From contig JACCGJ010014419.1 in the NCBI GenBank assembly GCA_013407085.1, positions 1 through 64,000 of the forward strand: 64,000 nucleotides of DNA, read 5' to 3'. Below the pieces are notes generated by a model. The model was not told the DNA's origin and made no database searches. It saw nothing but the letters and a program-made list of their open reading frames with translations. Below are positions 8,524 through 38,990 of this stretch, piece after piece. The position numbers were made by a program, and so were the translations under genes. How positions within the stretch are numbered: the stretch's first letter is position 1; every line of letters starts with the position of its first letter. The stretch comes from Atriophallophorus winterbourni. Its lineage: Eukaryota; Platyhelminthes; Trematoda; Plagiorchiida; Microphallidae.

Positions 8524-8562
8524 GACCGATAAGTGCAAAAGCACGAAACCGGTCGTGCTGGA
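8524..8562 (+). ncRNA. Hammerhead ribozyme motif, near-intact core
   Basis: Core in order: CCGATAA (consensus CTGATGA; two changes), stem II GTGC with loop AAAA and GCAC (perfect), GAAA, a self-complementary CCGG stem III, and the GTC triplet (to 8554) where cleavage would fall. The 3' side continues GTGCTGG. The first base change (CTGA to CCGA) probably reduces activity. The following sequence to about 8790 keeps parts of the dispersed hammerhead repeat. Confidence 0.6.
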
Positions 8563-8790
8563 CGTAATTCACGTGCAAGCAAATATGGATATTCTATGCA
8601 AGTCCATGGGTTCATCGCCATCCAGTTGTTTGTGTGTGCATGTGATTGGACAAGTTCGCCTCGTTATCCCAATCTAACAGAAGCTTCAGTTAAAATTTGT
8701 TTACCATTTCTCAACTGTTTCACAACATGCGGATGCTGGTTACACTGTCCCAGCTGGATGAGTGGAAACAACAAGAAACTGATTGGCAGA
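8563..8790 (+). repeat. Body of dispersed hammerhead repeat, degenerate
   Basis: Contains 'gcatgtgattggacaagttcg' and 'tttaccatttctcaactgtttcaca', which match the conserved body segments seen near 35550 and 36490 (catgtgatggaacaggttgg; tttaccatttctccactgtttcaag). Confidence 0.45.
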
Positions 8791-8799
8791 TGGATGGAA

Positions 8800-10288
8800 A
8801 ATCATAAAAATATGAACATTCCAACACTGCCTGACTTCTACTCGTGTCGCTTACATATCAGTCGTTTAGAACTTTTCGCAAAATTTTCCAGAAACTCACA
8901 ATGTAACAAGGCATGTTGTTCTGCGTCGAAATAAATTAAGTTGATTAAATAAACTATGCTTTATGTGTTGTGAGTCCTTCAGTCCCGATTTTCGGCAGAA
9001 TTTTTGCGTTTTGCAATGAAATAGTTATTTTCTTCACCAATCATAAACCGTGAATGTGGCAAAATAAAACATTTCGTGTTGTTTAGAGCAAAGTTCAGTT
9101 GTTTCCTTGACACTGAATTAACCTAGTTTTGGCCTATGATTTGTTACATAAATCTTGGAATACTGGTCATGCTGCTGAAAAAGAACACTTAAAATCTGGC
9201 ATATTGAAAAGTGTCCCAAATCCATGTTCATTTTTTGAATGGAACCTTAAAATGTTGAGGTGATGGGGATGTATCGCTTGAATATAGTTCATTTTGACAG
9301 GTTTAGCATATGGGCAAGTTGAGACTATGAAACAAAAATGTCTTCAATCTAATGCATTTCGAAAGATTCCATCACCATCACTGGTTGTCTTTAGTTGATT
9401 CAAACTGTATGCTAAAAATGAAAATTGACTTCACATCAACCGCTAGAATGAAACCGGGCGAAAATAATTATAAAACATTTATCAATGTTCAAGGAAATAT
9501 TGCGTAAATCAAGGTAATCCTTTGAAGGTATATCAGGTGAATTTCGGTCACATCGAGCGCGCCTATCTTCAGGGTGCTCAACTCGAAACTTAAATATTGC
9601 TGTTCAAAGGGCTAGTTGCACAATCCACTAACTATTTTGGTTGCATCGTAGTAAGTCATCTCAGAGAACGCGATTTCCTATTCTAATCATGGTGCCCAAG
9701 CTTGTGCTCGAAAGCTCAAGTGTATGAATGTAATTATTAGCTTTCTTAGCTAGTGACGTTACCACGCGCTCTTCTAGATGACTATAGTCTGCTTTTCAGA
9801 ACATCAACAGAGTTGGTAAAGTAAACCATAATCAAATGTAGCAATGGAAATCGTTCTTAACGGAGGCCTCGAAATTTACGAATAAACGGGTCTGTACAAA
9901 TTATATCCGTTGAATTAAACTGATTGCCATGACTATGGATATCATTCAATGCTTCATCCAACTCTCGTGCATACACCTGAGAACACTTCCTCGGTTGCTA
10001 GTGGGAACCAAAAAATGGGGTTGTGGCCAAACTCTGCCTCTTCCTAAGTAAACCATTTACAGCCGAATTGAGGGTTGTGAAGATCGCTTCATTTTTTCGT
10101 CGTCCGGTGTATGTACCTTCAACGAAGTGGCTGAATTGGCAGATACATCAAACTTGATTCACAAGGTTGAAATATTTTATCTGTCATTTTACTACTATTT
10201 CGCTGGTATACGTTATTTAGCACAACACGTTTGGTCCATTTAACAACTAGACTAAAATAAACTTTTGTCACAGCAATTAAGCCGGTTA
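8800..10288. other. Unassigned interval
   Basis: No supportable gene, RNA or repeat seen. Plus-strand frames here lack domain motifs. Confidence 0.35.
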
Positions 10289-10674
10289 CGACACAAAATC
10301 AAGCATCAGTCCTCTCCGTGCCGGGTGGCACATGAGGCGAAGACTACTTCACGCCAGTGGTTCCGGTCTTTCGCTGCTTCCGTTGCCGTCTGCACCGTGA
10401 ATCCTTGTGCATGTAGTTCGCGTTCCAACGTTTTGCGCCAAGTTTCCGTGGGCCGTCCCCTTTTTCGTTTACCTTGCGGATGCCAGTGCATGGCTACCTT
10501 CGTATGCGAACTGATATCCATCCTGCAGACATGACCGAACCACGGATCTGTTGTCATCGTTTCCGTAGCAATGTAGGTTTTACGGGATAGGGTTGCTAGC
10601 CCTAAGCCCAACCCTCCTCCTTTCTCAGACGGGCTTGGGACCGTCCTTGGCGATTTCGACACAAAATCAAGCAT
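10289..10674 (-). mobile_element. 5'-truncated RTE-like retrotransposon tail with 18-bp target duplication
   Basis: The insert (10307-10656) is bounded by direct copies of CGACACAAAATCAAGCAT at 10289-10306 and 10657-10674. The minus-strand frame encodes the C-terminal tail of an RTE-type ORF2: WFGHVCRMD, GKRKRGRPTETWRKTLEREL, then AAKDRNHWREVVFASC. Only the extreme 3' end was copied, as expected for LINE insertions that stop early. Confidence 0.8.
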
Positions 10675-11837: not shown

Positions 11838-12023
11838 TCACGTCAATTCTCCAATCGGGACCAGTCGAAGCCACATATCGGTGGTATAGTTGTACAGCTC
11901 TTCCGACAAGGAGACTTTATACGGTGTCGGGTTGAGAAAACGCTTGTAGTCCGCACGCAACAATTCCATTTGCTGTGCCACATTTTGCCTGGATTGTTCC
12001 AACGTAGGCAGCGGCGTTATCAC
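11838..12023 (-). CDS. NAPRT: NAPRT exon 11 (terminal)
   Basis: Acceptor GTTGATGCAG. Encodes [20 protein letters not shown], then [20 protein letters not shown] and ends IGELT-TGA. It matches the human C-terminus PLPSLAESR...SPAQYQVVLSERL. Confidence 0.93.
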   Translation of the reverse strand: MITPLPTLEQSRQNVAQQMELLRADYKRFLNPTPYKVSLSEELYNYTTDMWLRLVPIGELT

Positions 12024-15000
12024 CTGCATCAACAGCGAAGAGTAGCAAGGCAATAAAGTGGTCGATTTTAGAGCACATATAATTAACCGGATAAAAACGC
12101 GGAAGGATGGGTGCGTTAATATCGAATAGTTGGGATGAGCATAGACATATCAGCAAGACAGATTCCTTGCGGCTTTTGCTTCTAATATCGATTGACTACA
12201 GGGAATAATAATAAGGCTCCGGTTAACATGTCAAACAGCGTTATTAACTAATTCTGATAGATAAGCACCTCGTTCAACAACCTTGGAATCACAATTTCGT
12301 TTCAATTCACTCATCAAGATGTCGTCTGATAAAAAGCTACCCAAATCGAATGACATCGCAGAGTGAATGAGAACCAAGAGAGATGGGAAGCGAACATGGT
12401 TGGTATGCGGCTCCTTGAAAATTTACCATGAGAATCCAGAGTGGAAGAATTTTGATCGTGTTAAATCCTGTGTCTATAAGAGGAACGCAGACTGACTGAG
12501 ATGAGTGAAGTGAAAGTTTGTTGCGCATGTCTTACGGCATGAAGGCGATTTAAAGACAACTCACGTTAGTTCAAGATCGAGCTGTCTATCCGCGGATTTA
12601 ATTCGACAAACGATCGTCACATTAGTGAATGCGACAGACTGAACAAAGTTAATTCATCCTATGGTACAGTTCCATTGAACAAGACCCTGCAAATCATTCT
12701 GCTCTACGCGAAGCCAGCAATTTGTTCCTTATTCAAAGACGGAACAATTCAAAATGACACTTGTTACCTAAGTGGCTCGATACCTCGTTATACAATCAAA
12801 AGCTGTTTCACATTTAAAGATACGATCGACAAGTCGAAGTCGGCTATAAAGAGTTTTTCGTCATTTTACCTTAATTTTGTGGTAAAATTAATTTTTGCTG
12901 ATAAATAAGGTATTAGAATGAGGTATTTTATTTTCTTCAAGACGCAAAAGAAGCTGGATACCTGTCAGTTACCAAGCAAGTTAAACATCATACACATATC
13001 ATGGACGTACAGAATAAGGGATGCAGATGTGTTCCTATGACATTAATTACGAAAACTGAATGTTTAAAAATATAAAACGATGGTAAACAAAATTAGACTT
13101 TGGAGCCACTGTTCTTCAAACACATAATCACATGGTGATTCCTGATCAAGCTCTGGAGGAGCTGATGGATGATCAAAGTAACGTGTTTGAACATCGTGGT
13201 TCGTTGTACGAACCCTATCAAACAGTGGTTTCACAGACTAACTTTTATACCACTTTTCCACTGTTACATGGCTCACTGAACCTAATGCTATTGTCTCCAC
13301 CTGATGACGGCAAACAGTCAGAACCCGGTAGTGGTGTGTACGTGTGGGGTGTGTGAACAACACTTAACTTTGGTCATGAAACCATCATATTTTAAATGAG
13401 TTACTGTATGAGGGTTACAATCAGGAAGTCAACCTCAGAGTGAGCCGCACTTGTACTGCAAAGGCAATTTGTAAAAGACGTATGAAAGATTTCGGCATTG
13501 AACCTACGAGGTGTGAATAGCATGCTTCTAACCGCTCTCATCGAGGCATTGTGTAAAGCACATCTTTGGACGCTCATACAATATATTGACAAGCTTTTGC
13601 TCACCTTATAGTGTATTCAATGGTTAATATCAGAATAAATTTGAACGCGACCAAAGAGAGCTTTACTAAACCCAAAACATTAAAAGTAAAAACCGTTTGG
13701 AAAATAAGTGTCTATCCCAGACACAAGAGAAACGATCACAGCATGGAAATACTTTGCGCTCGATAATAGACAACTCTTCCGTTGGGAATGACACCACGTT
13801 TAATAAAAGACGTGCGAATAGCAAACTCTTATTTCCGGCTGAAAAACTCTGATTTAACTTGGTAACGAGAACTCCTCAACGATCTATACATAATCCGTTA
13901 AGGCTCACATCAATGATAAGCTTTACGAGAGTATACTTGTAAATGCCAACAATCAGACTGATCATTTATGATAGCTGAAGCATTCTCGTTACGGTATACA
14001 TTTGGATGTTAGCAGTACAGATGTGTACAATCCTTCGAGCTTAGCTTCAATAATAGCCACTCTCTCGATTAGCGCGTTAAATACATTCTTGCATACGGTT
14101 CTACCGTTTGGATCGCAGCAGTTAGGAGAACGGTCACACATTACCTAGTGTGTTGACGGATGTTGTTTCTAACTCCATAGAGTCAAGCGCTTCCAACTAT
14201 TTCACGCTTATGTGCCTATTGTGGACCTCCTTCGGTCGATGACGACCATGGTTGTACATCACAATCGCATGAATGTTCATTTTTTACAGCTTTTCGAATG
14301 ACTAATCAGTCCCATTCAGGAGTAACAATCTCTTCCATAGCGCTGGCAACTATAGTCAGAACTCTGTTGTAGGGCGTCAGTTACACGCCGGCGGCGTGAT
14401 TTGCGTTCAGCAGCCAAGAGCTGTATCTGCTCCTCTCCAGCTTACAGACGACGCTTTACACAATGCCTCAAAAGTGAGCGGTCAAGAGCAAATTCTTCCC
14501 AGCTCGCGGGGTCATTGCCAAGAGCTTTCATATCTCTTTTGCAAACGTATTTGTACCGCAAGTGCGGTCTGACCAATGGTAGACTTCCTGGTTGTATGTG
14601 TCTTTACACATGTGATTAAACAGGTTGGTTGTGCCAATTAGACATGAAATCTCGTAACATTGACCCAACTATTTGGAAAGAACTTCGGGGGCACTGTGTA
14701 GAGCATCATCTCCAAGCTAAGGAAAGCATATTTTGCTCTCGTAGATCACACCGACAGCATGCAACTGCAGTCAACCGACCGAGTACAGCAGACCGCTGTG
14801 TTTGCTGCGGGAGAGATTGTTCTCTCCTGAACTGGAGTGTTTAGTCAATTGAAGCGCTGAGGAGCAAGATGTACATCCATGATCCACATGGACAGAAGGG
14901 GGTCAACAAAAACAATATGTTTCGGAAAGGCTCGCACCGAATTCTGTGGAACACGTCAACATGTTATCGGGTTTCCACAGAACATTTATGACGTGAACTT

Positions 15001-18000
15001 GTAGCGCTTCGCTTTGATTTTCGGCACTACTGAAATGCAATTAAATTACCACTATTAATTCATTACTTGGCTGTGCCAATATTTAAGAAACTGTCCAAAC
15101 CTTACTCGGTTACAACGAAGATGACCCAGTTAATCGAACTAGGCTTTATTCCCTAAAGGGACGTGTCGATAAAATGACACCGTTACAGAATGGAGATTTC
15201 TATGAAAAAGTGAAAATCCCAGTCGATCCAAATTTCAAGTCTTGTCTACATTTCCATCAAAAGCGGATCCTGATCATATTGTACCAAGCTGATGAGTGCA
15301 AGCATCATTTGACGTAATGTGCAACTTTTTTCAAGCTAACGTATTACAGCGCGTATACCCGCATATAGTGTTTATGTCATTTAGCCGTTCGGTTGAATCA
15401 ATATCAACGAACTTTGACGCGAAACATTAGGATTTGTTTACCATTCCACCGCGATTTCAAGACAAGTGGATCCGGGTTGTAATATCCCTAGACGATGAGT
15501 ATAAACATCATCAAATCGGCCGTAGGATGTCTGTGATGTAAATGCACACGAATATGTATTTCGGGCCCATGCAATCAACCACTTTCATACGCAATTGAAT
15601 AGGATGCTTGTATTATGCTCATCACGATGGCTTCAAAGTTCATGATTCACTAAAACATGCTCTTCAGCAAACGAATCTCGATATCATTAAAAACGGAACC
15701 ACCTACTTCTCCGTTGCGCCAGAACAACTTCATCACTTCCTCCACTCGCGCAGGCACAACGTAGACGCGTTTCGAGGGTTCGCTCGGGTGGCGACAGAGA
15801 ATGCGCGTGTTCGCACGTGGAGGGGCTTCACTGGTGCGTTGAATCAGATCGAGCAGCGCATCGCCTGCGGTTAGGGGTGGTTGTGCAATTGATGATGAGA
15901 AGCATTTGAGGAACCGACCAACAGTTACGGAGGAAAATAATTGAAACGACATGCAAGTTTCACACCGTTTATATTTACATACGGGCAAATTCACACGGAA
16001 GAGTAGGTTTGTAGTACAACTGCTTTACCACTTGTTTTGTTAAAAGTAGAAGGGTCATAGATTGATTAGAAATTGTTCGAAATTCCAGATTAAGCTTTAC
16101 GTTGAGAAAACAAAAAATTGTACCAATTGCACATAAGTCTCTTCGTATAAAATGTACGTATAATATCAACGAGATAGACCTAAACTTATCTTAAAAATCT
16201 GGCATTCTGCAGTGGATAAGGATTAACGTGCATAACACCTAATGTGCACATGGACTACGTAAGCAGTGGGTCAGCAGACGCTGTTCGCACTTGCACACAC
16301 AATAAGCAATTTAGAGATTAACGCAGCATGTTGGGGGTGTGATCAATTGTCTTGATCTCGCCTGCCTATGTAAGGTAACTCAGGATTGGTCAAGAAAATG
16401 CCATTTAAACGTCAACCCTAATTGTACTGTCACCCCTGGTCTGACCAAGTTTCTGTGTCAGAAGCGAAACGTTACCAAAAATCTGCTATAACCGATTCAT
16501 TGCAAACTTGATTTTCATGATTATGGACTCCCGATCGGTCTCGAATAATTTCAATCGCCTTGCAAACTTAAACGTAGTTGTTCAATAAGCAGTTCGAATT
16601 GACAAAGGTGTCTTGATGATAACGCAATAAAGGATGTTCGATATGAAGACAATTTTGAAGGCCACGTGATGTACTTTGAGGAAGCTAAGCTTTTGAGGAG
16701 CTCGTTAAGAAGTATCATTAAAAATAATATGGATAAGTTGATCGTATGATGAAAAAAGACATTTTAAGGTTAATTCTAGGTTATAATAAAGAACAAAGCT
16801 ACTGCATGAAACGATTCTGATACACATTTTGAGCAACACAAAGTCTTTCAAAGGATGTGTTGGAAAAATAGCTTGTGAACAATACAAAATATGAAGTAAT
16901 ATGCAAGAGATGGAGTGAGAAATCAGCTTAGGGTTACGCCGAATGAAAGAAAAGAAAAGCGTTAGAAGAAAGCCTAGAAACTCTTCTAAGTAGAGAATTG
17001 AGATGATGACTTAGAAATGGCGATGCCTAAAGACTTGACATGTGATTACAACTTGTGGTCAAGATAACGGCCTGGCTCCAGGGAGACCTGGGCCAGCAAA
17101 TGTACTGTAGAACTAATAATTCATGGCAAACAATAGTCGCAGAAACTCCGAGATGGAAACAAAACCGAGATTAAAATCACGAAACTCACTGCAATCCAAA
17201 CCTAGAAAGTATATCGATCCATCCTCGTGGTTGACAATTTGGAAAGAATCTAAATCTATTGTTGGAATATGGTCGGGATTATTATTATGAATACAATGTT
17301 CACTATATTTTGATCTGTTGTGCCATACATGGAATTAAATAAATAAACAAACAAAAGAACTCTATTGAAAAGCAACGGTGTATGATCGGGTCGCCCACAT
17401 GCTGGCTGATTGTATCAATGTCCCGAGAACTTAGAAAGCACCTAACTTTTGTCGTTTTGTGTAAAATAAGCTCTGCTCATAACGTTTTCATGTAAAAGAA
17501 GGAGCAAGTACTCACCCTGTTTACCGAACAGCCGATAAACGGTCTTTCGTCCTGGTAAAGTGATTTTATCCGCAGCGGCGCTCAGTTTCATTGTCGGGGT
17601 CCCGGCAATCTCGACCAGTTTATAAACGCAACCCAGTGCTGGTTGCTTTTGGCAGGTGACCAAATTAGTCCCGACACAGAAGGCATCCACCGCGTTACCC
17701 TGCTTCGTAGAAAGCAAGACAAGTTACACACGGTTGGAGAAACTTTGAGATGCGTTTGCCTGGTTTCGTTTGAAGAAAACGCGCGGTTTCTGTGACGACA
17801 AACATGCAATCGATGGAGTAGGCAAACATGTTAACGCTGAGAGCGCGTAGGTGCCACTTAGCTTCAAGATTGTGGTTCAAAGTAATACTCAAATAATGTG
17901 ATTAATGCCGCTATCAAGCATGTAAGGCAAAAAACATAACTCTGAACTAACTAAACTAAGTGAACTCAAATTAGGATGCAGCAATTACATTTACGTTTCT

Positions 18001-21000
18001 CCGACATCAGTTACGAGAACCGTATGGTTGCTAAAACTACGATATTCACGTTTTCGATAAAAGCTTTTGAAATAAAATTATTACATGGCACATAAATGTG
18101 ATGAGTTATAAGTATTCGAGTGAAAACGCGGTTGCCATGTTAACAAGGGAATAGTTCAAGCAAAATAAGCAAATCCATTAATTTAGAGGTTCAGTAGCTC
18201 GCTGTTACAACCCATAGCGGTGACGCTTACCCGCGCTTTCTGCTACATGGATAAGCAAGGTTATGACACATTTTAAGAGTAGCTACGTCTCTTGGTATTT
18301 AGTTAAAACGGTTTGTGGCAGGGTCATGCAGAAGAAATCGCAACTTTTACAAAGGCAAAGCAGGGTTTGGATAAAATGAATTGTGAAATTTAGTAAGGAT
18401 GAAAAATACTGAAAGTATTATAACATTCACCAAACGAATGTCATAAATGGTGGGCACAGAAAAATCAATAACAAACCGGGTAGTTTTAATAGCTACAATG
18501 TCGATGATGGGTAAACGCAAGCTTGAAAACGCGTGCAATCGAAACGAAGACAAAGCTGGGGTAAACAAACACGGGCAAACCAACATGTTGAGACAAGCAA
18601 CTGGGTTCTAACAACAGAACAACAGATTTAAAAACCAACCGCACCCATTGAAAAGTGTGGTGTCCCGATTCGGCTAGAGTCTGGAAAAAGAAGTTATACA
18701 GCTCACGTGGATTGGACAATACAAAACGCAGGACACCACATCAAGCGGGACGTGATCACCGATAGCGTGATAGTTGTGCACGCATAGCAAATGCTAAGCA
18801 AAACACTTGCCGACTGGAGAAATGAGAGTCGTGAGAAAACCAAGAATATTCCTGACAATTTCTAGGCAATCGTCAAAAACGGAAGCAAGCACACAAAGGC
18901 CTGTGACCAGACTGAAATGAAGCATACGGTCCCTCGTTGCTGAGGGTAAACAGCCAGAGACCAGTCGTGGCGTATGTGTGCAGGGAATGTAAATAACAAA
19001 AATTTATAAGCGTTTTGAGTGCTTCGGTGAAAATCACTCCGTAATTCTGTATATAACCCCATTGTTCAAAGCATGACGCCTATTTAACGGTGGCTTCAAT
19101 GTAAGACATTGTTTAGCATCTTTGCACCATTTCTTGGTTCATTAACCGTAATCTTACTGTCGCTACCTGATGGGACGATCAACATGAAAGCTGTGTAGAG
19201 AATGTGAGTAAGAATATAATATGGGCAAATGTAAGTTATATCATTGATCTGTGTTTGTTCCCTATAGTTGAACTGGGAACCTCATCTTGGACAGTTCAAT
19301 GAAACAATTAACTCAGTGAATGTGCTTCTGAAGCATGGTGATTAATGCATAAATAACCGGCGGTTGTTAGTGGTGAAGAATTGTGACATTTTACACCGAC
19401 ACGAAAATGCTCCAAAGAAATATCTCAATATTGTAGATAATGACCTACTTCCGTGAATGTTTATTTCGAGTGTATACTGGGATAATATTAAAGTACAGCT
19501 AATACGGAACTAAGGATCCATGACACAAAAATGTGCTGTATTCGAACATATCTAGTTGAAACGAGCGTGTCTGACCTTCACGGTAGAAGCAACACTTGCT
19601 TCTATCTAGATTGAAGTGAACGTTCCGTTAATCGGTCGCGATGTAGAGTAGTGTTTATGCTGTTGTTGTCCTTCTTTGTTTAATTTCGATTATGGATGTC
19701 AGTCACAAGCGCATGATGGTTTCATGCGCCACAGCGTTCCGAATGACTAAACAGTTCAATTCGTGAGGGACAATCTCTCCCGCAACGGTCACAGTCATCA
19801 TCAACATCACCAAAGACGGCATTATACCAATAGCACGTACCGAATGCTTAACTGCCATACAACCATGAGAAAGTACAATTCTAAAAGATGGGGAAGGGTG
19901 GGACTTAAATTGCTACGGCTTCTATAGAAGAGTAAGCACAAACAAACTGGGAAGAGGTGCCTGCACCTCGAATGGAACACACATTCAAACAAGTTTTCGT
20001 GAACGAGTAGAGCGACTTTAGCACGGCAGCTTCCATGTGGCTTTCAGTGTCATGCATCATGCAGTGATAGGCAGTACTCGATTGAACGATGTCAGTTACA
20101 CGCTGACGGCGTGATCTGCGATCAGCAACCGAACCCTCCCCCCAGCTTGCAGATGGCGCTGCAAACAGTGTCTCAAAATTGAGCGGTCAAGATCAGGTTT
20201 TTCCAAACTCATAGGATCAATGGCAAGATCTTTTATATCTTTTTTACAAGTGTCTTCGAATGCAGCTTTCCAGGTTTCAACTGAGCAGAGTGTATGCATT
20301 TTGAAATACAACCATTTTCCATAATGCAAAAAAATTTGAGTATATTCTCGGGGCATCCGTAAGGGAATGAGAATAATTCATTACATGAATTCCAATTTGT
20401 TTACGTAGACGGATACACAGTTTCAAATTTTATTGTGAAATTAGACATACGAAGTTGGATAAAGATGATAAAAATTCAGTAATTTGATCTCCCTTTGGTT
20501 TATACCAAGATGTGTTGCCATATTTCAATTGTTTTTAAATGGTGACTAGGCAACTAGTTGACCTGAAAAACCGCTTCCTGTTTCTTGCTTTAATTTTGAG
20601 GTGAACCAACGTATTGTTTGTTTTCGTTGAAGCAAAGTTGTTTACATGTCAAGCTGACCTTATCACGCATAGGAGATAAATAGTCGAGAATTGGTACGAC
20701 CGATTATGGTCGAAGATGAGCCGCTGCAAATCTGCATTGTTTCTAATCTTATGCACGTGTTTCTTGCTTTGCGTAGCTTGCTTCCCTGAGCATGAGTAAG
20801 TGTAGTTGTGATTTTACTTACACACTTTCACTCAGTGCTGAGCACAGTCACGAAGACAAAAAAGAAGCCCCCATGGTAAATTGGTCTCATTTGCTAATGC
20901 CTTCCGAAACAGCAATTTGCCATGAGAATGTTTGGAAGAGTTAAAACACTCATGCCCAAGTTGAGTAAACGATTATGGAAATGTATGGAGTCCAGTGAAT

Positions 21001-33000: not shown

Positions 33001-36000
33001 CGCATTGTCTCGAAAGAGTGCTCAAAGCTGTAATGAATAATGCATACCACGAAAGCACATCATGTTTTCGTTGATGACTAGCTGAGATAGAGGAAGCAAA
33101 ACTCCATTGCACTTTTCACAAAAAGAGTTGTAGTCAAATGTTAGCCATTCCGTTAACGTCCAATTTAACGTAAACTTATTAATCATATTACCTGGATAAT
33201 AAAAGTTCAAGTAGGCGTGTAAGATTGACATTGTACAATAAAACAGCTGACGGGGGAGGGAATGAATGCACTAATGTGAAAAAAACCATCTGAAACTGCA
33301 CCTGGCAAAATTGACCGAATTGAGTATCGGAGTCTCCAGTAATTGACACAAAATTATTGGCCCTTCGACTCGCATAATAGGCTCCCGGGGAAACACTAAA
33401 GTTCCATCTGGGACGCTCCATAGGGAAACATCTTTGGGTGTAACTTGAGCCAGGTAATCAAAGAAGGCTTCATCCACGCAGGTAGGAAATGCGGTGCGCA
33501 GATAATCGATATCTGTGGATACGTCAATCGAATAGACATTTTACAAGAAAGTGATTTGTTCGGTTGAGCAATTCGCCTTTGCATCCATGTGGTAATCAAC
33601 AATTTATGTTTAGTTTACGGTAATAAAAATTGTGAAAGGTTTCGTCACGAGCATCACGAATTTAGAAAAACGGAAAAAATGCGGGATGACTTAAGTAGTA
33701 TTCAGGTTAGATCGACCAATGCTAGTCAACAATTATGGAATCGCTCAATTTGCAGGGGTTAGCCGATACGCTTTTCCGATGTTCGTTTTGCTTGGCTTGA
33801 AATACTCGGCACATCAAATGAGATACAGAATTTAGTTATGTTTATCTTCCTGAGTTTCCGCTTGAATTCAAGAAAGAATGCGCGACATGACGCTCTACAA
33901 AAAGCAATTAATCAACCAGACCAGAAAGCACATGCTCTATGTTTTTGCACAAGAGCAAAAGCCGCCTTATTCACGCCACGCATTATTCAACTGGAAGGCA
34001 TTTCCTCAACCACACCGGCACGAAAATTAGCGCACCCTTCACCGGAAATTAAGGACAAGAACCGACATTCTACTCAGAGCTAAGGCGTAACATTGAATGA
34101 AATTCAAGCTCTGTGAAAAGTTTATGCGAAAATACTAAACAGCATTGACCATTTGGTCTACAACTTGGAATCGCATTGTGGTTGACACATGATTAAAAAT
34201 CCGCGTTTCGTACGTGCTTCGTTTTTAGGTTATGAGATTTAACCTGACCGAAAAGTTTAGTATCGGTTGTCTATAATAGGATTATCTTTTAAATAGACAG
34301 TCTAGAGTAACAATGAAAGTTGAATAAAATAGAGAAAATTAAGACATCACAAAAACAATTTCAAACTCAAACAAAATCACATAATTGTTTGTTAAATAAC
34401 CAAAAAGCTCATCGAGCAAACATCTTAACCATTATCTCACATAACCATGATCATGGACAGTAGTACATCGGTAATAGGTAGCGAGTGCTTAACTGCCATA
34501 CAACCATGACACGTTGAAATCCTAAAAAGAAGGGAGAAAGTGGGACCGAGAAAGCTACTGAACCTGTAGAAGATTAGGCGCAGGCACACTGGGATGAGGT
34601 GCCTAAACCTCAAATCGAACACGTTTTCAATCAAGTATTGTGAAAAAGTAAAGCAACATTAGCATAACAGCTTCCTTACAGCTTTCATAACAAGTTTTCC
34701 TTTCCACTCAACTTACCAAGATACAAGATTACTCGAAGGCTCCCAGAAGATGTCTACAACAAGACTACCACTGAACATAGTTTTGAAACATATCACTGAG
34801 AGTAAGAAGCCACTGTAAATTCTGATATCTTGGCCGTTAGATTAGCACTGAGGCTTGCGGTTCATATAAATGGGTAACTAATTGAAGGGAACTTGAAAAG
34901 CACACTGTTGAAAACTAGCACGCACACCAAGATAATACTGAAAGTTTCTATTGATTTAACGTTTTGTAAATGAACAAAAATGACGCAGTAGTAACAAAAA
35001 TCCTCATTTGAATGTATTTCCATCACACATATGTCACAATCGGTTACGTGCTGTGAGCACTCATCCGTTAGGTACATTACGATCAGCATCCGTATGCTAC
35101 GAAACAGTGGAGAAATAGTAAACACGTTTTGTGCTTGAATGCCACTGCTGGTAAAGTTTGGTACGACCGACCAGTCCAAATACATGTGCCCAGACACATG
35201 GGGATGGGATTAAAAAACGCAGTATTCACATGTTTTGGAAGAACGGAACTGTGAAGCGAAAAACTGTATTTGCAAGCAGTTCCATCACACACACACACAC
35301 CGGTTCCGTGCTGTTGCACTAATCAGTTGAGTACAATACGATCAGGATCCGCATGTCTTAAAACAGTGGAAGAATGGTAAGCAACTTGCGCCTGTATGCC
35401 ACTTTTGGATCAGGTTGTTACGACCAACCTGCCGAAACACATAGAAAGGGGTTAAATCCATTACCATGACAAAATCCGTATTTATATGCATTTCAATCAC
35501 ACACAAACCCATTCTACATGTGTTTTGTCACATGTGATGGAACAGGTTGGTCGTACCAACCTCATCCAACACTGCCATACAAGCGCAGCTTGAAACTGTG
35601 GAAACATTCCAGGACATTGATAAGGCCAACTTACAAGTGTTGTGAAGCTAAGTAGCTCCAGCACTACTTCCGACAACACCCTTAGTTTGCAAAGTTTATG
35701 CTGCTAAAAATTATAGCTCATACTAGTTTGCGACTGACAAAAACATGCCACTGGTTGAAACAGTATAGATGTATGCTAACGCAGAAATCGGACTATGTAA
35801 TTCTAACAAATGCTCCATGATTTCTCCGTATTCCAACACAAAAAACAGTAGACGATTATAAATATTCATGATGAAACAGAATGTTGTGAAAGCTAAACAC
35901 AACCACAAATGTGGAACAAGAATAATAGTGAGAGTCAAACAACGTGCGAAACCTTAAAATCAGATGAAACAGTGTGTGGATTATCCTGCACTGGTGATGT

Positions 36001-37219
36001 ACATAATTGATCAAAGCCAATAAAAGGTTAACGAACTGATAAAAAATGAATCTCGAATTTTAAATTTTGATAGCAAAATAGATTAAGTAACACATTCAAA
36101 AATGAAGCAACATCGAAATACGCACCTTCTTTGGAAAATTTGAAACTGCTCAACAGATCAATGCAGTCGGAAAGGCCAGCAAAAATGGTAAACTCTCCTT
36201 GAAAGGGATTTTTGCGGAAAAACACTTCAAAAACAGCGTGCTCGTTGCTTTTCTTGGTTTTCCAATATCCGTAAGACATTGTCAATTGATAAAAATCTGG
36301 TAAACGGAATTTTACTTAAGTCGGAATAACCAGAAAATTTAATGAAATTAGATTGCAACTAAATATACTCATTGGCATCATTTTCATCACACACGCCCCA
36401 CTACCGGCTTCCTGCTGTTTGCACTCATCAGGTAGGGCCAGTACGATCAGTATTCGCATGGCTTGAAACAGTGGCTTACATGTATAAATTGTTTACCATT
36501 TCTCCACTGTTTCAAGGTAATTGGATCCTGATCTAAATGTCCCTACCTCATGAGTGCAAACATCACAAAAATGGTCTGGGTTGTTTGTAATGGGAATGCA
36601 TACAAATGAGTATCTTCGTTTATGACCATACGTTTAACTCATCTACATGTGTTTTGGCACCTGTGAATGGACAGATTGGTCGTGCCAACCTTACACAACA
36701 GTGGATTATAAGCAGAACTTGTTTAGATTACAACTGTATAAGAATGAAATCAAATGTACCAGAATAATCATTTACATGCCTTTACATCACACACCCCACG
36801 ACCGGTTTCGTGCTGTTTGCACTTATCAGGATTCGCATGCGTTTGAAATCAAATGTACTTAGGGGAAAATTCGTTCGAAAAATATGCATGATTGTGCTGA
36901 ACCAACAGTTTTTGGATATGATTTGATAGTGCCATATGTCGATAAATTACTTAAACATGAGTGCACTTGCTACCTTAATCAGTTCATATTGTCTCATTCT
37001 AGACACGTAACGGAGCATAAATGTAGTGAAGTGAACGATTACTGTTAGCTTCATTCACTTTCCTAATGCAGCCTCGTGAAAAAATTGTCTAGGGATTGCG
37101 CTAACAAATTATGACAGTATCGTAAAACAGAAGTTTAATCCCTTACCAGTCAGTAAAGGCTGAACCACGCGTAAATGGGCATCAGACGAAGGACTATTTT
37201 CTCCTTTTTGATTCGGCAT
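11838..37219 (-). CDS. NAPRT: Nicotinate phosphoribosyltransferase (NAPRT), 11 exons
   Basis: Catalyses nicotinate + PRPP + ATP to nicotinate mononucleotide, the first step of the Preiss-Handler route to NAD, in the cytosol. Exons (minus): 37219-37147, 36296-36126, 33512-33302, 32121-31991, 30771-30674, 29744-29497, 28427-28287, 24252-24168, 17699-17516, 15864-15707, 12023-11838. They sum to 1686 bases: 561 residues plus TGA. All introns are GT-AG and all phases close. Visible family features: LLTD-FYQLTM (Tyr27, human Tyr21), GTHAHSF (His219, the phosphorylated His213 in human), [11 protein letters not shown] (Arg335, human Arg318), LVSNDLNED and CVGTNLVTC (Thr397, human Thr380), [10 protein letters not shown]. 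Human NAPRT is 538 residues. No stop or shift interrupts it, so it is probably functional. The introns carry many retroelements. Confidence 0.95.
12024..13085. other. NAPRT intron 10, first part: no feature seen
   Basis: AT-rich intron sequence. A plus-strand frame at 12675-12908 has no recognisable domain and is probably chance. Confidence 0.4.
13086..13370 (+). repeat. Dispersed hammerhead repeat copy (intron 10)
   Basis: Shares with 38640-38990 and 63800-64000 the blocks 'ttgtacgaaccct', 'aacagtgg', 'ggctcactgaacctaat' and 'gatggatgatcaaagt'. Its ribozyme core at 13297-13340 reads CTGATGA, then a mismatched stem II around AAACA, then AGAAC, CCGGTA and GTGGTGTG. The GAAA and cleavage triplet are altered, so it is probably inactive. 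Antisense to NAPRT. Confidence 0.6.
13371..14219. other. NAPRT intron 10: no feature seen
   Basis: No supportable gene or repeat recognised. Confidence 0.35.
14220..14595 (-). repeat. Family R retroelement tail
   Basis: Close copy of the segment at 26005-26400: 'cacgccggcggcgtgat', 'ttcagcagccaagagctgtat', 'gcaagtgcggtctg'. In minus frames it encodes the C-terminal tail ([14 protein letters not shown], then a W-rich block). It lacks the RT domain. Confidence 0.65.
14597..14640 (+). repeat. Fragment of dispersed hammerhead repeat body
   Basis: 'tttacacatgtgattaaaca' followed by 'ggttggttgtgccaatt' matches the body block near 35520-35565. It lies between two oppositely oriented family R tails. 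Confidence 0.5.
14641..14860 (+). repeat. Family R-like retroelement tail, plus orientation
   Basis: Plus frame gives [20 protein letters not shown], then EHHLQAKES and a Cys-rich end [14 protein letters not shown]. It matches family R's [15 protein letters not shown]...[12 protein letters not shown] and adds a terminal zinc-finger-like motif. Confidence 0.6.
15262..15325 (+). repeat. Degenerate hammerhead copy (intron 10)
   Basis: Has the family leader GGATCCTGATCATATTGTAC, then CTGATGA and GTGC-AAGCA, but stem II 3' and GAAA are lost. Antisense to NAPRT. Confidence 0.45.
15707..15864 (-). CDS. NAPRT: NAPRT exon 10
   Basis: Acceptor CTAACCGCAG. Encodes [33 protein letters not shown] and [13 protein letters not shown], the C-terminal domain segment matching human RVWPPGAQEPCTVRPAQVE. 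Donor GTAGGT, phase 0. Base composition is GC-richer than its flanks. Confidence 0.92.
15865..16425. other. NAPRT intron 9, first part: no feature seen
   Basis: No recognisable repeat or coding sequence. Confidence 0.35.
16430..16565 (+). repeat. Repeat family X copy (intron 9)
   Basis: 'ttctgtgtcagaagcgaaacg' and 'ccgatcggtctcgaataatttcaatcg' match copies at 21514-21690 and 31618-31837. No coding potential. Confidence 0.6.
16570..17515. other. NAPRT intron 9, remainder
   Basis: Nothing recognised. A/T-rich, with short simple 'aaataaataaacaaacaaa' near 17337-17356. Confidence 0.35.
17516..17699 (-). CDS. NAPRT: NAPRT exon 9
   Basis: Acceptor ACGAAGCAG (an AG three bases upstream would add one Gln). 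Encodes [33 protein letters not shown] and [16 protein letters not shown]. Thr397 sits in the phosphate-binding VGT. Donor GTGAGT, phase 1. Confidence 0.95.
17700..19140. other. NAPRT intron 8, left part: no feature seen
   Basis: Minus-strand frames here show no domains and lack splice context. Confidence 0.35.
19150..19200 (+). repeat. Very degenerate hammerhead copy (intron 8)
   Basis: Family leader 'aaccgtaatcttactgtcgc' then CTGATGG and ATGAAAGC. Stem II is not preserved. Confidence 0.35.
19660..20360 (-). repeat. Family R tail interrupted by family Y
   Basis: 19660-19790 and 20085-20360 match the two halves of the family R tail (compare 26020-26400), in the same orientation. The right half encodes [20 protein letters not shown] and [12 protein letters not shown] in minus frames. 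The family Y sequence between them is a nested insertion. Confidence 0.6.
19835..20080 (+). repeat. Repeat family Y copy (nested, intron 8)
   Basis: Matches 34440-34690: 'gcttaactgccatacaaccatga', 'gaggtgcctgcacctcgaatgg' and 'agcttccatgtggctttca'. Shorter copies are at 37760-37835 and 63340-63415. No coding signal; likely a SINE or other short element. Confidence 0.6.
20361..21513. other. NAPRT intron 8: no clear feature
   Basis: A plus-strand frame at 20922-21356 has no domain resemblance I can name. Near 20690 'ttggtacgaccgattatgg' resembles the hammerhead repeat body but is too short to call. Confidence 0.3.
21514..21690 (+). repeat. Repeat family X copy (intron 8)
   Basis: 'catgttccctgtcctgacta', 'ttctgtgtcagaagtgaaacg', 'ctctaaccgattgcaatcaa' and 'cacgatcggtcccaaacat' match the insertion at 31618-31837 on the opposite strand. 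Confidence 0.65.
21690..21960 (-). pseudogene. Family R RT fragment (intron 8)
   Basis: Minus frames give [14 protein letters not shown], then [20 protein letters not shown]: the end of the RT domain and start of the connection in RTE-like elements. It aligns with 5600-5760. Confidence 0.6.
22200..22340 (-). pseudogene. Short LINE coding remnant
   Basis: Minus frame reads [20 protein letters not shown], resembling a linker region of a non-LTR ORF2. Family not determined. Confidence 0.3.
22516..22617 (-). other. Possible in-frame cassette exon in NAPRT intron 8
   Basis: A 102-base open stretch between acceptor TTTTTGACTGCAG and a strong donor CAG-GTAAGA, phase 0 on both sides and in the transcribed orientation. 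It would insert 34 residues (begins [11 protein letters not shown], ends [10 protein letters not shown]) between Gln386 and Gly387. NAPRTs I know have no such insert, so it may be chance or an alternative exon. Confidence 0.25.
23255..23680 (-). pseudogene. LINE A-family RT fragment (intron 8)
   Basis: About 430 bases align by eye with 1480-1940 of LINE A in the same orientation: 'ggggacttcttttcgtttag', 'tacaacgctta(g)gattgaa', 'cattctc...tgcatgcgatcctcccttaca'. This covers the pre-catalytic RT region. Several indels and stops. Confidence 0.7.
24168..24252 (-). CDS. NAPRT: NAPRT exon 8
   Basis: Acceptor TTCGCCAAAG (a weak AAG site). Encodes [20 protein letters not shown] then TLYSLNHQ, the FxxPW...SNDINEE block of the family. 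Donor GTACGC, phase 0. Only 85 bases long and more than 4 kb from either neighbour. Confidence 0.92.
24805..24990 (-). repeat. Family R tail fragment (intron 7)
   Basis: 'gttgcacgccggctgcgtgatct', 'cagcagccaagagctgtatct' and 'tgcctccaatgtgagcggtcaa' match 26160-26280. Runs directly into a family Z repeat. Confidence 0.6.
24964..25150 (+). repeat. SINE-like family Z copy (intron 7)
   Basis: 'gtgggctaagatactctcag', 'gtccgggcctagacaaa' and 'gaagtactgcacaattacgcat' match 59195-59425 and 62300-62540. Confidence 0.6.
25160..25990. other. NAPRT intron 7: no feature seen
   Basis: No recognisable repeat or reading frame. Confidence 0.35.
26005..26590 (-). repeat. Family R element, best copy (intron 7)
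   Basis: Minus frames give [20 protein letters not shown] (RT catalytic F-A-D-D), then after a jump [38 protein letters not shown] and [13 protein letters not shown]. The palm is joined directly to the C-terminal tail, so a few hundred residues are missing. Confidence 0.65.
26640..26770 (-). repeat. Dispersed hammerhead repeat copy (intron 7)
   Basis: Contains the family leader (rc of 'gtaggtacagtacgaccattatcg') and 'acggtggtgaaatggtaaacaaa'. Encloses the best ribozyme core of the window. Confidence 0.65.
26676..26724 (-). ncRNA. Hammerhead ribozyme, best-preserved copy
   Basis: On the minus strand: CCTAC (stem I 5'), CTGATGA (26712-26706, exact), GCGC-AAACA-GCAC (stem II, one mismatch against GTGC/GCAC), GAAAC (26692-26688, exact), CCAG, then GTC (26685-26683), then GTGG pairing back to CCTAC. 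Predicted cut between 26683 and 26682. Stem III is only two to four pairs, a form that in other flatworm hammerheads is reported to work best as a dimer. It is sense-oriented in NAPRT intron 7. Confidence 0.75.
27087..27360 (-). repeat. Candidate LTR (intron 7)
   Basis: Minus strand runs TGTCAGCC...TTAAACA (TG...CA, 274 bases), with TATATAAGATGAGC about 145 bases from its end and AATAAACGCC about 80 bases from its end, the usual LTR order of TATA box then polyA signal. Upstream (27361-27862) is a 115-residue open frame I cannot identify. The flanks do not show a target duplication, and no second LTR was seen in the window. Confidence 0.5.
27515..27862 (-). CDS. Unidentified open frame beside the candidate LTR
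   Basis: 115 codons with 11 Cys residues, reading toward the candidate LTR at 27360. It could be the end of an LTR-element polyprotein. No motif recognised, and the overlapping plus-strand frame is equally long, so coding status is uncertain. Confidence 0.25.
   Translation of the reverse strand: MHICGSSTCYAVCKVSIGDLADVCYGKYLSIVVRRMNRIEQWLPGISLVNEKVLTFKLVCKDSDPHSRLRFQNCFVGVVKQHGNTSNVVKNVVEISVCMSNTKCISDGCESRAFE
28287..28427 (-). CDS. NAPRT: NAPRT exon 7
   Basis: Acceptor TTTCGATAG. Encodes [20 protein letters not shown] and [10 protein letters not shown], holding the Arg335/Asp337 PRPP- and nicotinate-site region. Donor GTGAGT splits the CAT codon, phase 2. Confidence 0.95.
28428..29496. other. 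NAPRT intron 6: no clear feature
   Basis: Short internal echoes ('aaccgagtttcgcagttaagcc' and 'aaccgagtttggcaaagtaag' near 28577-28634) but no identifiable element. Confidence 0.35.
29497..29744 (-). CDS. NAPRT: NAPRT exon 6
   Basis: Acceptor CACCCCTTTAG. Begins [10 protein letters not shown], then [10 protein letters not shown], and [23 protein letters not shown] sequence matching human PGERAAFVAYALAFP. Ends GLIDTFDVL plus CG. Donor GTAAG, phase 2. Confidence 0.95.
29745..30673. other. NAPRT intron 5: no feature seen
   Basis: AT-rich, with no recognised repeat. Confidence 0.35.
30674..30771 (-). CDS. NAPRT: NAPRT exon 5
   Basis: Acceptor GCGCGCAG. Encodes [20 protein letters not shown] then [13 protein letters not shown]. 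His219 corresponds to the histidine that is transiently phosphorylated by ATP. Donor GTAAGA, phase 0. Confidence 0.95.
31603..31852 (-). mobile_element. Foldback insertion of repeat family X with 15-bp duplication (intron 4)
   Basis: Direct repeats GGTGTGAACATAAAT at 31603-31617 and 31838-31852 bound a 220-base insert. Within it, 31654-31715 and 31774-31835 are 62-base inverted arms with a few mismatches. The left part matches family X (21514-21690) in reverse. Confidence 0.8.
31991..32121 (-). CDS. NAPRT: NAPRT exon 4
   Basis: Acceptor TGGTTTAG. Encodes [20 protein letters not shown] and [20 protein letters not shown], almost identical in pattern to vertebrate NAPRT ([10 protein letters not shown]). 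Donor GTAAGC, phase 1. Confidence 0.95.
32122..33301. other. NAPRT intron 3: no clear feature
   Basis: No repeat family recognised with confidence. Confidence 0.35.
33302..33512 (-). CDS. NAPRT: NAPRT exon 3
   Basis: Acceptor TATCCACAG. Encodes [30 protein letters not shown] and [10 protein letters not shown], matching the human FPGVPLLQVSGPLLVVQLLE block. Donor GTGCAG, phase 2. Confidence 0.95.
33513..34439. other. NAPRT intron 2, right-hand start: no clear feature
   Basis: A plus-strand frame at 33838-34083 has no domain signal. Confidence 0.3.
34440..34690 (+). repeat. Repeat family Y copy (intron 2)
   Basis: Matches 19835-20080 along about 240 bases: 'gtgcttaactgccatacaaccatga', 'gaggtgcctaaacctcaaatcg', 'agcttccttacagctttca'. 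Confidence 0.65.
35030..35075 (-). ncRNA. Hammerhead copy, altered core (intron 2)
   Basis: CCTAA, CGGATGA (one change from CTGATGA), perfect stem II GTGC/GCAC with loop TCACA, GTAAC instead of GAAAC, CCGATT. Two catalytic positions are changed, so it is probably inactive. Sense to NAPRT. Confidence 0.5.
35292..35335 (-). ncRNA. Hammerhead copy, altered core (intron 2)
   Basis: CTGATTA, perfect stem II GTGC/GCAC with loop AACA, GGAAC, CCGG, then GTG in place of GTC. A (TG)n run follows. Sense to NAPRT. Confidence 0.5.
36126..36296 (-). CDS. NAPRT: NAPRT exon 2
   Basis: Acceptor TTTACCAG then AT, completing the Asp codon. Encodes [12 protein letters not shown] (substrate-site Tyr27) and [16 protein letters not shown], then GLSDCIDLL. 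Donor GTGCG after phase 1. Confidence 0.95.
36396..36438 (-). ncRNA. Hammerhead copy, good stem I (intron 1)
   Basis: CCCTAC pairs with GTGGGG (stem I; one G-U). CTGATGA exact at 36431-36425. Stem II GTGC-AAACA-GCAG has one mismatch. GAAGC replaces GAAAC. CCGG then GTA in place of GTC. The leader CTGATCGTACTGG is kept. Sense to NAPRT. Confidence 0.6.
36541..36580 (+). ncRNA. Degenerate hammerhead copy (intron 1)
   Basis: CCCTAC, CTCATGA, GTGC-AAACA-TCAC, AAAAA, TGGTC, TGGG. Opposite orientation to the copies on either side, with which it shares 'ccatttctccactgtttcaagg' (36496-36517). Confidence 0.5.
36794..36829 (-). ncRNA. Hammerhead ribozyme, near-intact core (intron 1)
   Basis: CTGATAA (36829-36823; one change), perfect stem II GTGC-AAACA-GCAC, GAAAC exact, CCGG and GTC (cut between 36800 and 36799), then GTGGGG. 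The stem I 5' strand is not the usual CCTAC. Sense to NAPRT. Confidence 0.65.
37147..37219 (-). CDS. NAPRT: NAPRT exon 1
   Basis: ATG at 37219-37217, with A at -3. Encodes 24 residues ending VVQPLLT plus one base, then donor GTAAGG. This gives the start of the LLTD(L/F)YQ motif of the family. Residues 1-15 are polar and variable, as in other NAPRTs. Confidence 0.9.
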
Positions 37220-38639
37220 TCTTGAAATTATCAAATATCTGTAACGTCAACACGATAGATGGTTTTAACATCTTGAGATGAATCATTTGTATTTAAATCG
37301 ATAAAAATGCAGGAAGAACGATGCATGATTAGAGTACACACAAGAATGCGAGCGAAATATTGAAACAAACATCTGTTATGAGATGAACATAGTTCAAACG
37401 TGTAAGCGATGAAACGCAACGGTTCGAACAATTATATGTATTTATGCTCTTACACACTAAACACACAACAGCCAGCTCCGTGTTAGTTACACAAATCTCT
37501 GTTTTTTATTGCTATCAGGCAGCTGAAATCCTGAAGGACATTTCTTATCTCCGATTTTTATAACGGAAAACAAAACATGTGATAAAAATCCAGCCGTTGG
37601 ATTGTTTGTTTTTCTGATATTCTATTATTTCCTCGTTTCAGTCAGTATGCATTTTGAAAAGGTATGGTAGGGAATTCATGTTATGTACGGTTTCCTAAAA
37701 TCTTCAAAGGACTTCGAATCTTATCTTCTTCAGTAGAGACAGCATTGCACCATTAGCATTTATCAAATTTTTTCAACTGCGATACAACCATGAAAATAAT
37801 GAAATCCTAAAAATGGGTATTAAACAGGCGCACAGTTTATCTTCACAGATCAATCGAACAGGGACTTTGTGCACCTTAAGTTAGCTCCGGCAAAACTGAT
37901 AATACGAACTCGAGGGTGTGCACGTTTGAAAAGCAGACAAATATGGATATGTTGTACAATTTATTATTGCGTTCATGTTAGAGAACAGGTATTGCTGCAT
38001 AACTTTGACAACTATGATTTCTCTGACGTTTTAGGCTATGCTAGAAAAATGAACAACATCTACCCGATGAATACTGCTAACAACAAGAATACTGTGCGGA
38101 GGGTTACGAAAAGTGTGTAAATACGGATGTTTCGTGCGACATAGGACCTTAATTCGCAGAAAAATGCATGTCAGCATGAAAATATGATTATAAATCAAGG
38201 GTACATTTCATGAAAATAATGCACTTCAAATGCTTGTAAAATATTATCAAGCATATCTAACGCGAATTCAATCACTACGGTGAAAATCACTGGAAATTCA
38301 AGAGAATTATCCTGAATAATTTGAATAATCATAGATGTGTCTATCATATAGAATTTATTGAATGTTGACTAAACTTGAAATGCAGCTCTATTAAATGTGC
38401 CACGATGGGTTCTGTGATAAAATATTCCTGAAATCAAACTGAGGGTACCTTATTGGAAACTATTACAACAAATATGCTGTAGTTTATTTTTGTATCAATT
38501 AAAATATTATTAAAACATTCGTTACTGGAAATTTGGAACATATATATGACTATGAATGGATAGCTGCATGATCATTTATAGTTAAAAAATGCATTACCTC
38601 GAAGTTTTTTCTTTAATATTGGTTCCTAAAATATGTTGG
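37220..38639. other. Upstream flank of NAPRT
   Basis: Presumed promoter and 5' untranslated region of NAPRT, plus a family Y fragment. I see no CpG-rich segment or convincing TATA box that fixes a start. Confidence 0.35.
37760..37835 (+). repeat. Repeat family Y fragment
   Basis: 'gcgatacaaccatga...gaaatcctaaaaatggg' matches 34496-34540. Lies upstream of the NAPRT start. Confidence 0.5.
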
Positions 38640-38990
38640 AACTACATCTATTCAACAAATATGTGTTGATCACAAGTTGTTGAAATAATATCAACCATAG
38701 ACCGGTAGTTGTGTGTGAGTGCGAGGAATGTGAGCAATACATCACTTTGGTCATCCATAAGCGCCTTGAGTGCTTGACCAGGAATCACTAAGTGATTCTG
38801 TGTTTGAACACTGCAGTTAGTTGTACGAACCCTGTGTAACAGTGGCATTCAAGTATAACTTTGTTTAACACTTATCCACTGTTTCAAGGCTCACTGAACC
38901 TAATCTTACTGTGTCCACATGATTAAAGCAAACAGCCTAAAATCGGTAGTGGTGTGTAAGTGCTGGAGATATGAGCAACACAATACTATT
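38640..38990 (+). repeat. Dispersed hammerhead repeat copy, decayed ribozyme
   Basis: Matches 13086-13370. The ribozyme at 38917-38955 reads CATGATTA, AGC-AAACA-GCC, TAAAAT, CGGTA, GTGGTGT: the short stem II survives, the core does not. Confidence 0.55.

Follow-up and report, generated by a model that had tools for sequence, protein, structure and literature searches.

A probable retrozyme-like retrotransposon family with a small, predicted dimeric type I hammerhead in the fluke Atriophallophorus winterbourni

Bases 1-64000 of contig JACCGJ010014419.1 in the Atriophallophorus winterbourni assembly GCA_013407085.1 (hereafter the window, 64 kb) contain diverged copies of a short dispersed repeat, which a first-pass annotation had taken for a family carrying a minimal hammerhead ribozyme. 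Searching the whole assembly (537 Mb, 15,840 contigs), we conclude that the repeat very probably belongs to a non-autonomous retrotransposon family of this digenean fluke, a retrozyme-like unit with a small type I hammerhead predicted to act as a dimer. The existence of a hammerhead-bearing dispersed family is supported by intact copies elsewhere in the genome, by a full-length match to the type I hammerhead model of Rfam (RF00163), and by the retention of a CTGATGA motif for which the copies had not been selected. Judged by their letters, the window copies themselves are old, inactive remnants.

Two types of stem II dominate by eye among the roughly 100 places listed for a pattern that leaves its two outer pairs free, GTGC/GCAC (subfamily A) and CGGC/GCCA (subfamily B). 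The A unit is 233 bp long and the B unit 241 bp; both are apparently non-coding, and each has one small type I hammerhead. In A, stem I is CCCUAC/GUGGGG, beyond which lies a 3x3 internal loop (UGU/UGU); the core CUGAUGA follows, then stem II with its loop (GUGC-AAACA-GCAC, loop II being AAACA), GAA, and stem III, ACCGGU. Cleavage is predicted after the C (in A) or the A (in B) that follows ACCGGU. Stem III is a self-complementary palindrome without a loop, and therefore a single copy cannot close it, whereas two neighbouring copies can.

The 22-nt core that served as search pattern (stem II, GAA, and stem III) was found at 15,584 genome places with at most two mismatches, and its reversed form at none; a pattern with the two outer stem II pairs left free (CTGATGANNGCAAACAGCNNGAAACC) has 8,636 exact places, against 0 for its control. 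The roughly 100 places listed among the 15,584 lie on the assembly's first contigs, and all but five of them were fetched. Of 90 exact-core copies fetched, 44 are intact in parts that had not been selected for, with CTGANGA, a base other than G at position 17, and five of five stem I pairs. Counting all loci fetched by then, minus identical copies and those near an end, 109 distinct copies had been chosen by stem II, GAA, and stem III with up to two mismatches; CTGATGA, which played no part in that choice, is unchanged in 80, and position 17 is other than G in 107 and is C in 104. RF00163 matches all four units of locus L010 over its full length (32.9 bits, E 8.9e-6). Units also stand in arrays, the longest cited here having 33.3 copies of 233 bp (L009) and a B-type array 2.6 copies of 241 bp; GC content is 0.44-0.47 in nine genome units. 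Viral contigs gave no match to the 22-mer core.

Folding agrees with the predicted need for two copies. Without constraint, two majority cores cofold as a double hammerhead at -37.3 kcal/mol, compared with 2 x -16.6 kcal/mol for the single cores. Among natural neighbouring units (a set that left out L001-L008), the unconstrained minimum-energy fold is a full double hammerhead in 13 of 34 pairs. This fold occurs in 10 of the 14 pairs in which both ribozymes are intact, in 3 of the 20 others, and in none of 102 core-shuffled controls. In these models, two paired copies would thus have the shape of a self-cutting RNA.

The ends of the copies carry marks of insertion. We mapped a natural array onto the loci, setting phase 0 at the first base after the cut; block ends are BLAST ends, good to a few bases, and the 5' ends are conditioned on the loci containing the searched core. 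Loci L006, L008, and L017 duplicate L005/L018 and were excluded from the counts of block ends and flanking repeats. In 65 loci there are 94 blocks: the 3' end of 48 falls at +26..+53, and another 12 are inverted parts that abut the 5' end of such elements. The 48 elements include 26 of at most 130 bp and 15 of at least 233 bp. For flanking repeats, leaving out also L009, L054, and one element too near an end reduced the set from 48 to 46; direct repeats of 9-16 bp (score at least 9) flank 18 of these 46, compared with 0.6% of mismatched flanks. Subfamily B behaves alike: its blocks end at +28 to +51 in 18 of 29 cases, and flanking direct repeats scoring 9 or more were counted in four distinct elements (four and not 6 of 28, as L094 and L100 occur on both strands). 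A 3' end that falls by preference 26-53 nt beyond the cut, variable 5' ends, inverted 5' parts, and flanking repeats together show insertion by target-primed reverse transcription, with 5' truncation and a twin-priming-like inversion. Every counted copy continues past the cut site, so the template was uncut or re-ligated. Multi-unit blocks in L004, L005, L010-L012, and L018 share the 3' phase of the single ones, as would suit repeated copying round a circle; the 33-unit array L009 departs from it, its block ending at phase 164.

One structure of the unit recurs at these ends. A hairpin, here hairpin B, spans phases 122-168 of the A unit. Fifteen of 35 uninverted A elements start at phase 161-174, at or just beyond its 3' arm. 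Where the 5' part is inverted, it starts at phase 146-150 in 5 of the 11 A elements concerned and at 160-161 in 2 of the 3 from B. These inversion starts coincide, in A as in B, with the end of TTGTTTA in the hairpin B loop, and hairpin B seems to matter for insertion.

A life cycle can be proposed on this basis. Read-through transcripts of arrays would cut themselves as dimers into unit-length RNA, which a ligase would close; the reverse transcriptase of another element, with Penelope-like elements as candidates, would copy this RNA once or several times round, beginning at the preferred 3' site. Parts of PMC7761336 present Penelope-like elements as no more than likely candidates for the mobilisation of retrozymes, and a putative partnership with them here is in line with that published proposal. 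Reverse-transcriptase frames of up to 924 codons (112 scored of 10,046 candidates) were taken as Penelope-like since, besides being related to flatworm proteins, they match a GIY-YIG frame from the assembly. Some stand in head-to-tail arrays with a spacing of 2,521-2,531 bp on contigs C13078, C13126, C10286, C11715, C2474, and C6359. Penelope-like elements as carriers of the units were considered and set aside, no tie having been found in a sample that is small against the 10,046 candidates: the A core is absent at up to three mismatches from 15 distinct GIY-YIG loci (22 stretches), and a scan of two stretches between reverse-transcriptase frames, from two Penelope-like arrays, gave no match to an Rfam hammerhead model with E of 1 or less. 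A bolder version, which we put forward tentatively, is that retrozyme insertion is steered by the element's own hairpin, with one RNA acting as dimeric cutter, as reverse-transcriptase stop, and as second-strand docking loop, copied by resident tandem Penelope-like elements and perhaps through several rounds of a circle.

We return to the window with a repeat profile trained on 111 copies from other contigs and none from the window's own (L005, L006, and L008 were excluded from training); it replaced self-trained profiles, since those trained on the window would flatter themselves. At E<1e-6 it has 15 matches in the window. Eleven are the sites of the first-pass annotation, all of which are thus copies of one repeat in the orientations it had given, and four are additional, all on the plus strand (8687-8783, 15432-15565, 18913-19005, and 38701-38757). 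A further fragment lies at 23125-23172 (E 3.7e-4). The reversed window gave a best E of 2.8 and three shuffles gave 0.71, 5.0, and 6.0. The matches at 15278 and 19161 span chiefly the leader and the beginning of the core. A weak candidate at 38059-38102 was discarded, being absent from these matches. Tandem pairs occur at five places, with cut-to-cut distances of 203, 229, 230, 241, and 261 bp, and at 36.4-36.8 kb three copies stand in alternating orientation across palindromes; Tandem Repeats Finder, run on the window, detected none of the tandem pairs. The hammerhead regions of the copies, with the E-values of their profile matches, and hairpin B are as follows.

8521..8561, plus strand: copy 8a, A-type; core mutated to CCGATAA, predicted cut after 8554; first of a tandem pair; E 6.3e-9
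8749..8792, plus strand: copy 8b, A-type; decayed core, cut equivalent after 8784; 230 bp beyond 8a, as second of the pair; match 8687-8783, E 7.6e-15; absent from the earlier list
13296..13338, plus strand: copy 13, B-type; CTGATGA intact, stem II CGGC/GTCA; E 5.4e-28
15284..15326, plus strand: copy 15a, A-type; 3' half decayed; match 15252-15301, E 8.9e-9
15487..15529, plus strand: copy 15b, A-type; 203 bp after 15a; E 2.1e-15; absent from the earlier list
18934..18976, plus strand: copy 18, B-like; decayed core with ACCAGTC; E 2.6e-13; absent from the earlier list
19162..19204, plus strand: copy 19, B-like; decayed, 229 bp after copy 18; match 19103-19172, E 7e-7
26677..26717, minus strand: copy 26, A-type; catalytic residues present, one stem II mismatch, C.A in stem III; RF00008 19.4 bits; E 8.6e-26
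35032..35072, minus strand: copy 35a, A-type; mutated core (CGGATGA, GTAA); E 3.8e-25
35292..35331, minus strand: copy 35b, A-type; 261 bp before 35a; core CTGATTA, GGAA, position 17 lost; E 1.2e-28
36395..36436, minus strand: copy 36m, A-type; CTGATGA intact, stem I of 7 bp, stem II outer pair G.G, GAAG; RF00163 19.2 bits; E 4e-30
36462..36516, no strand: hairpin B (CTTGAAACAGTGG ... CCACTGTTTCAAG), common to the head-to-head pair 36m/36p
36542..36583, plus strand: copy 36p, A-type; head-to-head with 36m across hairpin B; E 1.6e-27
36792..36835, minus strand: copy 36m2, A-type; 22-nt core exact, CTGATAA, 5' strand of stem I lost; tail-to-tail with 36p; E 4.6e-22
38676..38715, plus strand: copy 38a, B-type; 5' part of core unrecognisable; match 38701-38757, E 3.4e-8; absent from the earlier list
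38914..38956, plus strand: copy 38b, B-type; 241 bp after 38a; core ATGATTA..AAA; E 1.8e-31

The loop and 3' arm of hairpin B are among the best-conserved stretches of the repeat (conservation 0.91 and 0.79 over two bins of 10 columns, from about 9-10 copies). Copy 26 has the best-preserved core of the window; 36m, whose core is almost intact, is the other well-kept copy. The order that had been described for the sites (leader, (C)CCTAC, CTGATGA, GTGC-AAACA-GCAC, GAAAC, CCGGTC, GTGG) is that of the majority of window copies. A complete hammerhead layout is present in this majority and in no single copy: a strict descriptor (CTGANGA, full stem II, GAA, UH, and four stem I pairs) has 0 matches on either strand of the window, and the majority meets it. 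None of 20,000 dinucleotide shuffles of the majority do so, and a comparable descriptor has 0 matches in 2.4 Mb of shuffled DNA; the window's single CTGATGA..GAAAC match is equalled in 25 of 100 shuffles. Scanned whole, the window gave nothing at the Rfam gathering thresholds and no hammerhead at E<=10; scans of short stretches gave weak matches at the copies noted at 26676 (RF00008, 19.4 bits) and 36396 (RF00163, 19.2 bits).

The first-pass annotation had argued for an RNA structure from paired changes and a fixed stem II; the window copies support neither. Only 76.4% of stem II cells are paired in 14 window rows; there are 4 double-changed pairs compared with 3.9 in column shuffles, and the covariation score is 0.193 compared with 0.161, a value of 0.193 being reached by 61 of 500 shuffles. 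Overall, 70.4% of cells are paired in the window copies, against 66.4% in shuffles (13 of 500 reach it) and 28.6-48.5% in slid versions. Covariation as proof of an RNA structure was consequently rejected, neither the window nor subfamily A showing an excess of paired changes.

Several results weigh against the retrozyme-like reading, and covariation supplies two of them. Within A, stem I pairs no better than independent columns would, and there is no covariation inside the subfamily; a lack of stem I/II covariation, which the first-pass annotation had named as refuting its reading, is in part what the copies show. What covariation there is in stems I and II comes from the comparison of A with B, which is itself mixed. 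The B alignment has 29 rows, one of them A-type, found with a pattern that fixed CTGATGA, GAAACC, and the inner stem II. Of these rows, 27 have A at position 17; pairing holds in 90-93% for stem III and in 83-93% for pairs 1-4 of stem I. Two pairs differ between the subfamilies while staying paired: at pair 2 of stem II, U-A in A becomes G-C in B, and at pair 3 of stem I, U.G becomes C-G. At pair 5 of stem I, C-G becomes U-A in 13 of 29 rows or U.U in 14 of 29. Stem II pair 1, from G-C to C.A in 20 of 29, leaves the outer pair broken, so that the tally is one compensatory change, one wobble-to-pair change, one broken pair, and one half. Because stem I pairs in A behave as independent columns and the double changes of the window match shuffles, the case for a ribozyme rests on its layout and not on covariation.

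The other points against this reading concern folding, score, and insertion. Folded against shuffles, three window units are not unusually stable (z -0.6 to +0.2), and nine genome units folded as circles are little better than shuffles (z -1.2 to -2.2). The RF00163 score of the L010 units is 1.1 bits below the gathering cut-off of 34. The 3' end is preferred and not fixed: among the 82 blocks other than inverted parts, 17 stop at 0..+11 and a further 17 at other phases. A circular template is compatible with copies that run past the cut, which ask of the template merely that it be uncut or re-ligated. The two stretches between Penelope-like reverse-transcriptase frames contain no unit-like sequence (best E 0.95). 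Finally, B-like unit fragments occur in 4 of the 15 GIY-YIG loci (L085:7138-7230 on the minus strand, L072:2157-2299, L070:2083-2160, and L089:864-970), at differing places and, where this can be compared, beyond the part common to relatives. The L085 fragment keeps CTGATGA intact and lies some 1.9 kb away from its GIY-YIG frame; in L070, the part common to related GIY-YIG loci stops about 200 bp before the fragment, and the relatives are without it.

The repeat might instead be a short interspersed element (SINE) of the Sm-alpha kind, in which a linear RNA polymerase III transcript ending at a T-run (AAATGAATATTTT or AAATGAGCTTTTT) is the template, the hammerhead only trims, no circle is formed, and arrays arise through unequal exchange. 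We consider this rather unlikely. By eye, the A-type 3' end is close to a T-run in many elements and a linear template may apply in A, but B-type 3' ends lie mostly away from T-runs, and several multi-unit blocks keep the 3' phase of single copies, the L009 array excepted. The 26 of 48 elements that are no longer than 130 bp hold a single ribozyme, and a linear template would stay whole there, since a single ribozyme could not cut. The units offer no convincing polymerase III promoter: the A unit approximates an A box and a B box with one mismatch each, the B unit has a B box at two mismatches and no A box, and an exact A or B box occurs in neither (matches taken without a chance control).

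That the units are the detached terminal repeats (pseudo-LTRs, after long terminal repeats) of a Penelope-like element and not an independent family is less likely still. Inverted terminal parts are known for Penelope; Penelope-like elements seem abundant in this genome, also in tandem, and the fragments in 4 of 15 GIY-YIG loci would fit such an origin. Small hammerhead variants of Penelope-like elements reportedly cleave as dimers (work ascribed to Lunse et al. 2017). The fluke units share with these hammerheads a diminished palindromic stem III and tandem placing, which parts of PMC6466107 and PMC7761336 give as their marks. Yet the fragments in GIY-YIG loci are no denser than elsewhere (the 64-kb window alone has 15 copies), the L070 relatives lack the fragment and share a part that ends earlier, and neither of the two sampled inter-frame stretches holds a unit or an Rfam hammerhead. 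In the small sample taken, no Penelope coding sequence is attached to the fluke units, whose stem I, unlike that of the small Penelope-like hammerheads, keeps a 6-bp helix and an internal loop; as this loop faces the 5-nt loop II, a tertiary contact is conceivable. The Penelope-like frames do have a hammerhead-like stretch of their own, CTGATGA-T-GTCATC..GATGAC-GAAACGTC, at L114:135-170 and L115:171-206 in the first part of the frame. This stretch differs from that of the units and sits in an open, conserved coding frame, with two differences that are both synonymous, a poor stem I, and no Rfam match.

A satellite or MITE-like (miniature inverted-repeat transposable element) DNA repeat with a coincidental hammerhead layout would account for the palindromic parts and for the lack of an intact ribozyme among the window copies, but it is very improbable given the 0 of 20,000 shuffles of the majority with the layout, the ribozyme parts retained unselected in A, the 83-93% pairing of stem I pairs 1-4 in B, and the variable-length flanking repeats, preferred 3' end, and 5' truncation, which are marks of retrotransposition and not of cut-and-paste.

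The fluke family can be set beside described systems, compared here through passages of the papers cited. The first-pass annotation had likened the repeat to Sm-alpha elements and to metazoan retrozymes; both likenesses are apt, and the retrozyme is a better fit than the SINE-like Sm-alpha. In parts of PMC7229834 and PMC7761336, metazoan non-LTR retrozymes are short non-coding units of 150-450 bp with a GC content under 50% and a type I hammerhead, arranged as tandem dimers to multimers, with target-site duplications, if present, larger than 4 bp. The fluke family resembles them in unit size, tandem arrays, hammerhead type, GC content, and flanking duplications of more than 4 bp. It differs in that most invertebrate type I hammerheads tested have a stable helix III and cleave as single copies (passages of PMC7761336), whereas the palindromic fluke stem III has no loop and in this is nearer to the dimer-requiring motifs of amphibians; a circular RNA, moreover, has been demonstrated for metazoan retrozymes and is a proposal for the fluke family.

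Hammerheads of the newt and salamander satellites are described in portions of PMC6155905 and PMC7229834 as tandem units with a weak helix III and dimeric cleavage, and the fluke units have the same tandem placing, weak helix III, and predicted dimeric cleavage; those hosts are vertebrates, however, and the axolotl unit is about 330-350 nt. Within digeneans, sections of PMC8490949 and PMC2770079 treat Sm-alpha/Sj-alpha and W-elements as hammerhead-bearing repeats of Schistosoma; over 10,000 copies are given for Sm-alpha, and PMC2770079 counts about 38,500 hits to the hammerhead in S. mansoni. Like them, the fluke family combines a digenean host with a type I hammerhead in a short, high-copy retroposon. 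Its stem sequences are other than those described for Sm-alpha, whose ribozyme cleaves as a monomer and closes stem III with a loop. Platyhelminth retrozymes are named in a single clause in the part of PMC7229834 drawn on here; that clause excepted, no such digenean family outside Schistosoma appeared by title or passage in the open literature searched, which leaves subscription papers and supplementary lists uncovered.

The window has other features besides the repeat. A gene for nicotinate phosphoribosyltransferase (NAPRT) lies on the minus strand, with exon frames from 36031-36315 to 11841-12149 (NAPRTase_N and NAPRTase_C). Eight of the 15 repeat copies stand between its first and last recognised exon frames, on both strands, and the copy noted at 36396 on the minus strand is 80 bp upstream of the first exon frame. 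A different repeat at 31654-31835 has a self-inverted centre (193-bp self-alignment) and relatives at 21514-21674 and 16426-16568 with 75-91% identity; in appearance it is a fold-back or MITE-like element. Remains of non-LTR elements (RVT_1 and endonuclease domains, placed by frame), CR1-like by our reading, occur at 113-4326, 40143-42644, and 49995-53622, all on the minus strand, and those of an LTR element with aspartic protease, RNase H, and integrase domains, likewise placed by frame, at 44323-47966 on the plus strand. The best named relatives of a reverse transcriptase in the window are from Dicrocoelium and Paragonimus, and the COX1 on contig C6618 (L111), read in the flatworm mitochondrial code, is closest to that of Prosthogonimus cuneatus at 80% identity; both agree with a digenean host. 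Elsewhere in the assembly, broken COX1 stretches on contigs C4859, C4746, C8922, C10138, and others, besides C6618, are perhaps nuclear copies of mitochondrial DNA.

For the biology of these elements, the family brings another digenean lineage, here with 8,636 exact-core places, into the range of dimer-type hammerhead retroelements. Its copies with clean flanking repeats are direct sequence evidence of how retrozyme-like units insert, and the marks are unusually clear. The same genome has abundant elements that seem to be Penelope-like; the claim that such elements move retrozymes becomes testable, and hairpin-steered copying round a circle would, if true, account for single copies and 33-unit arrays alike.

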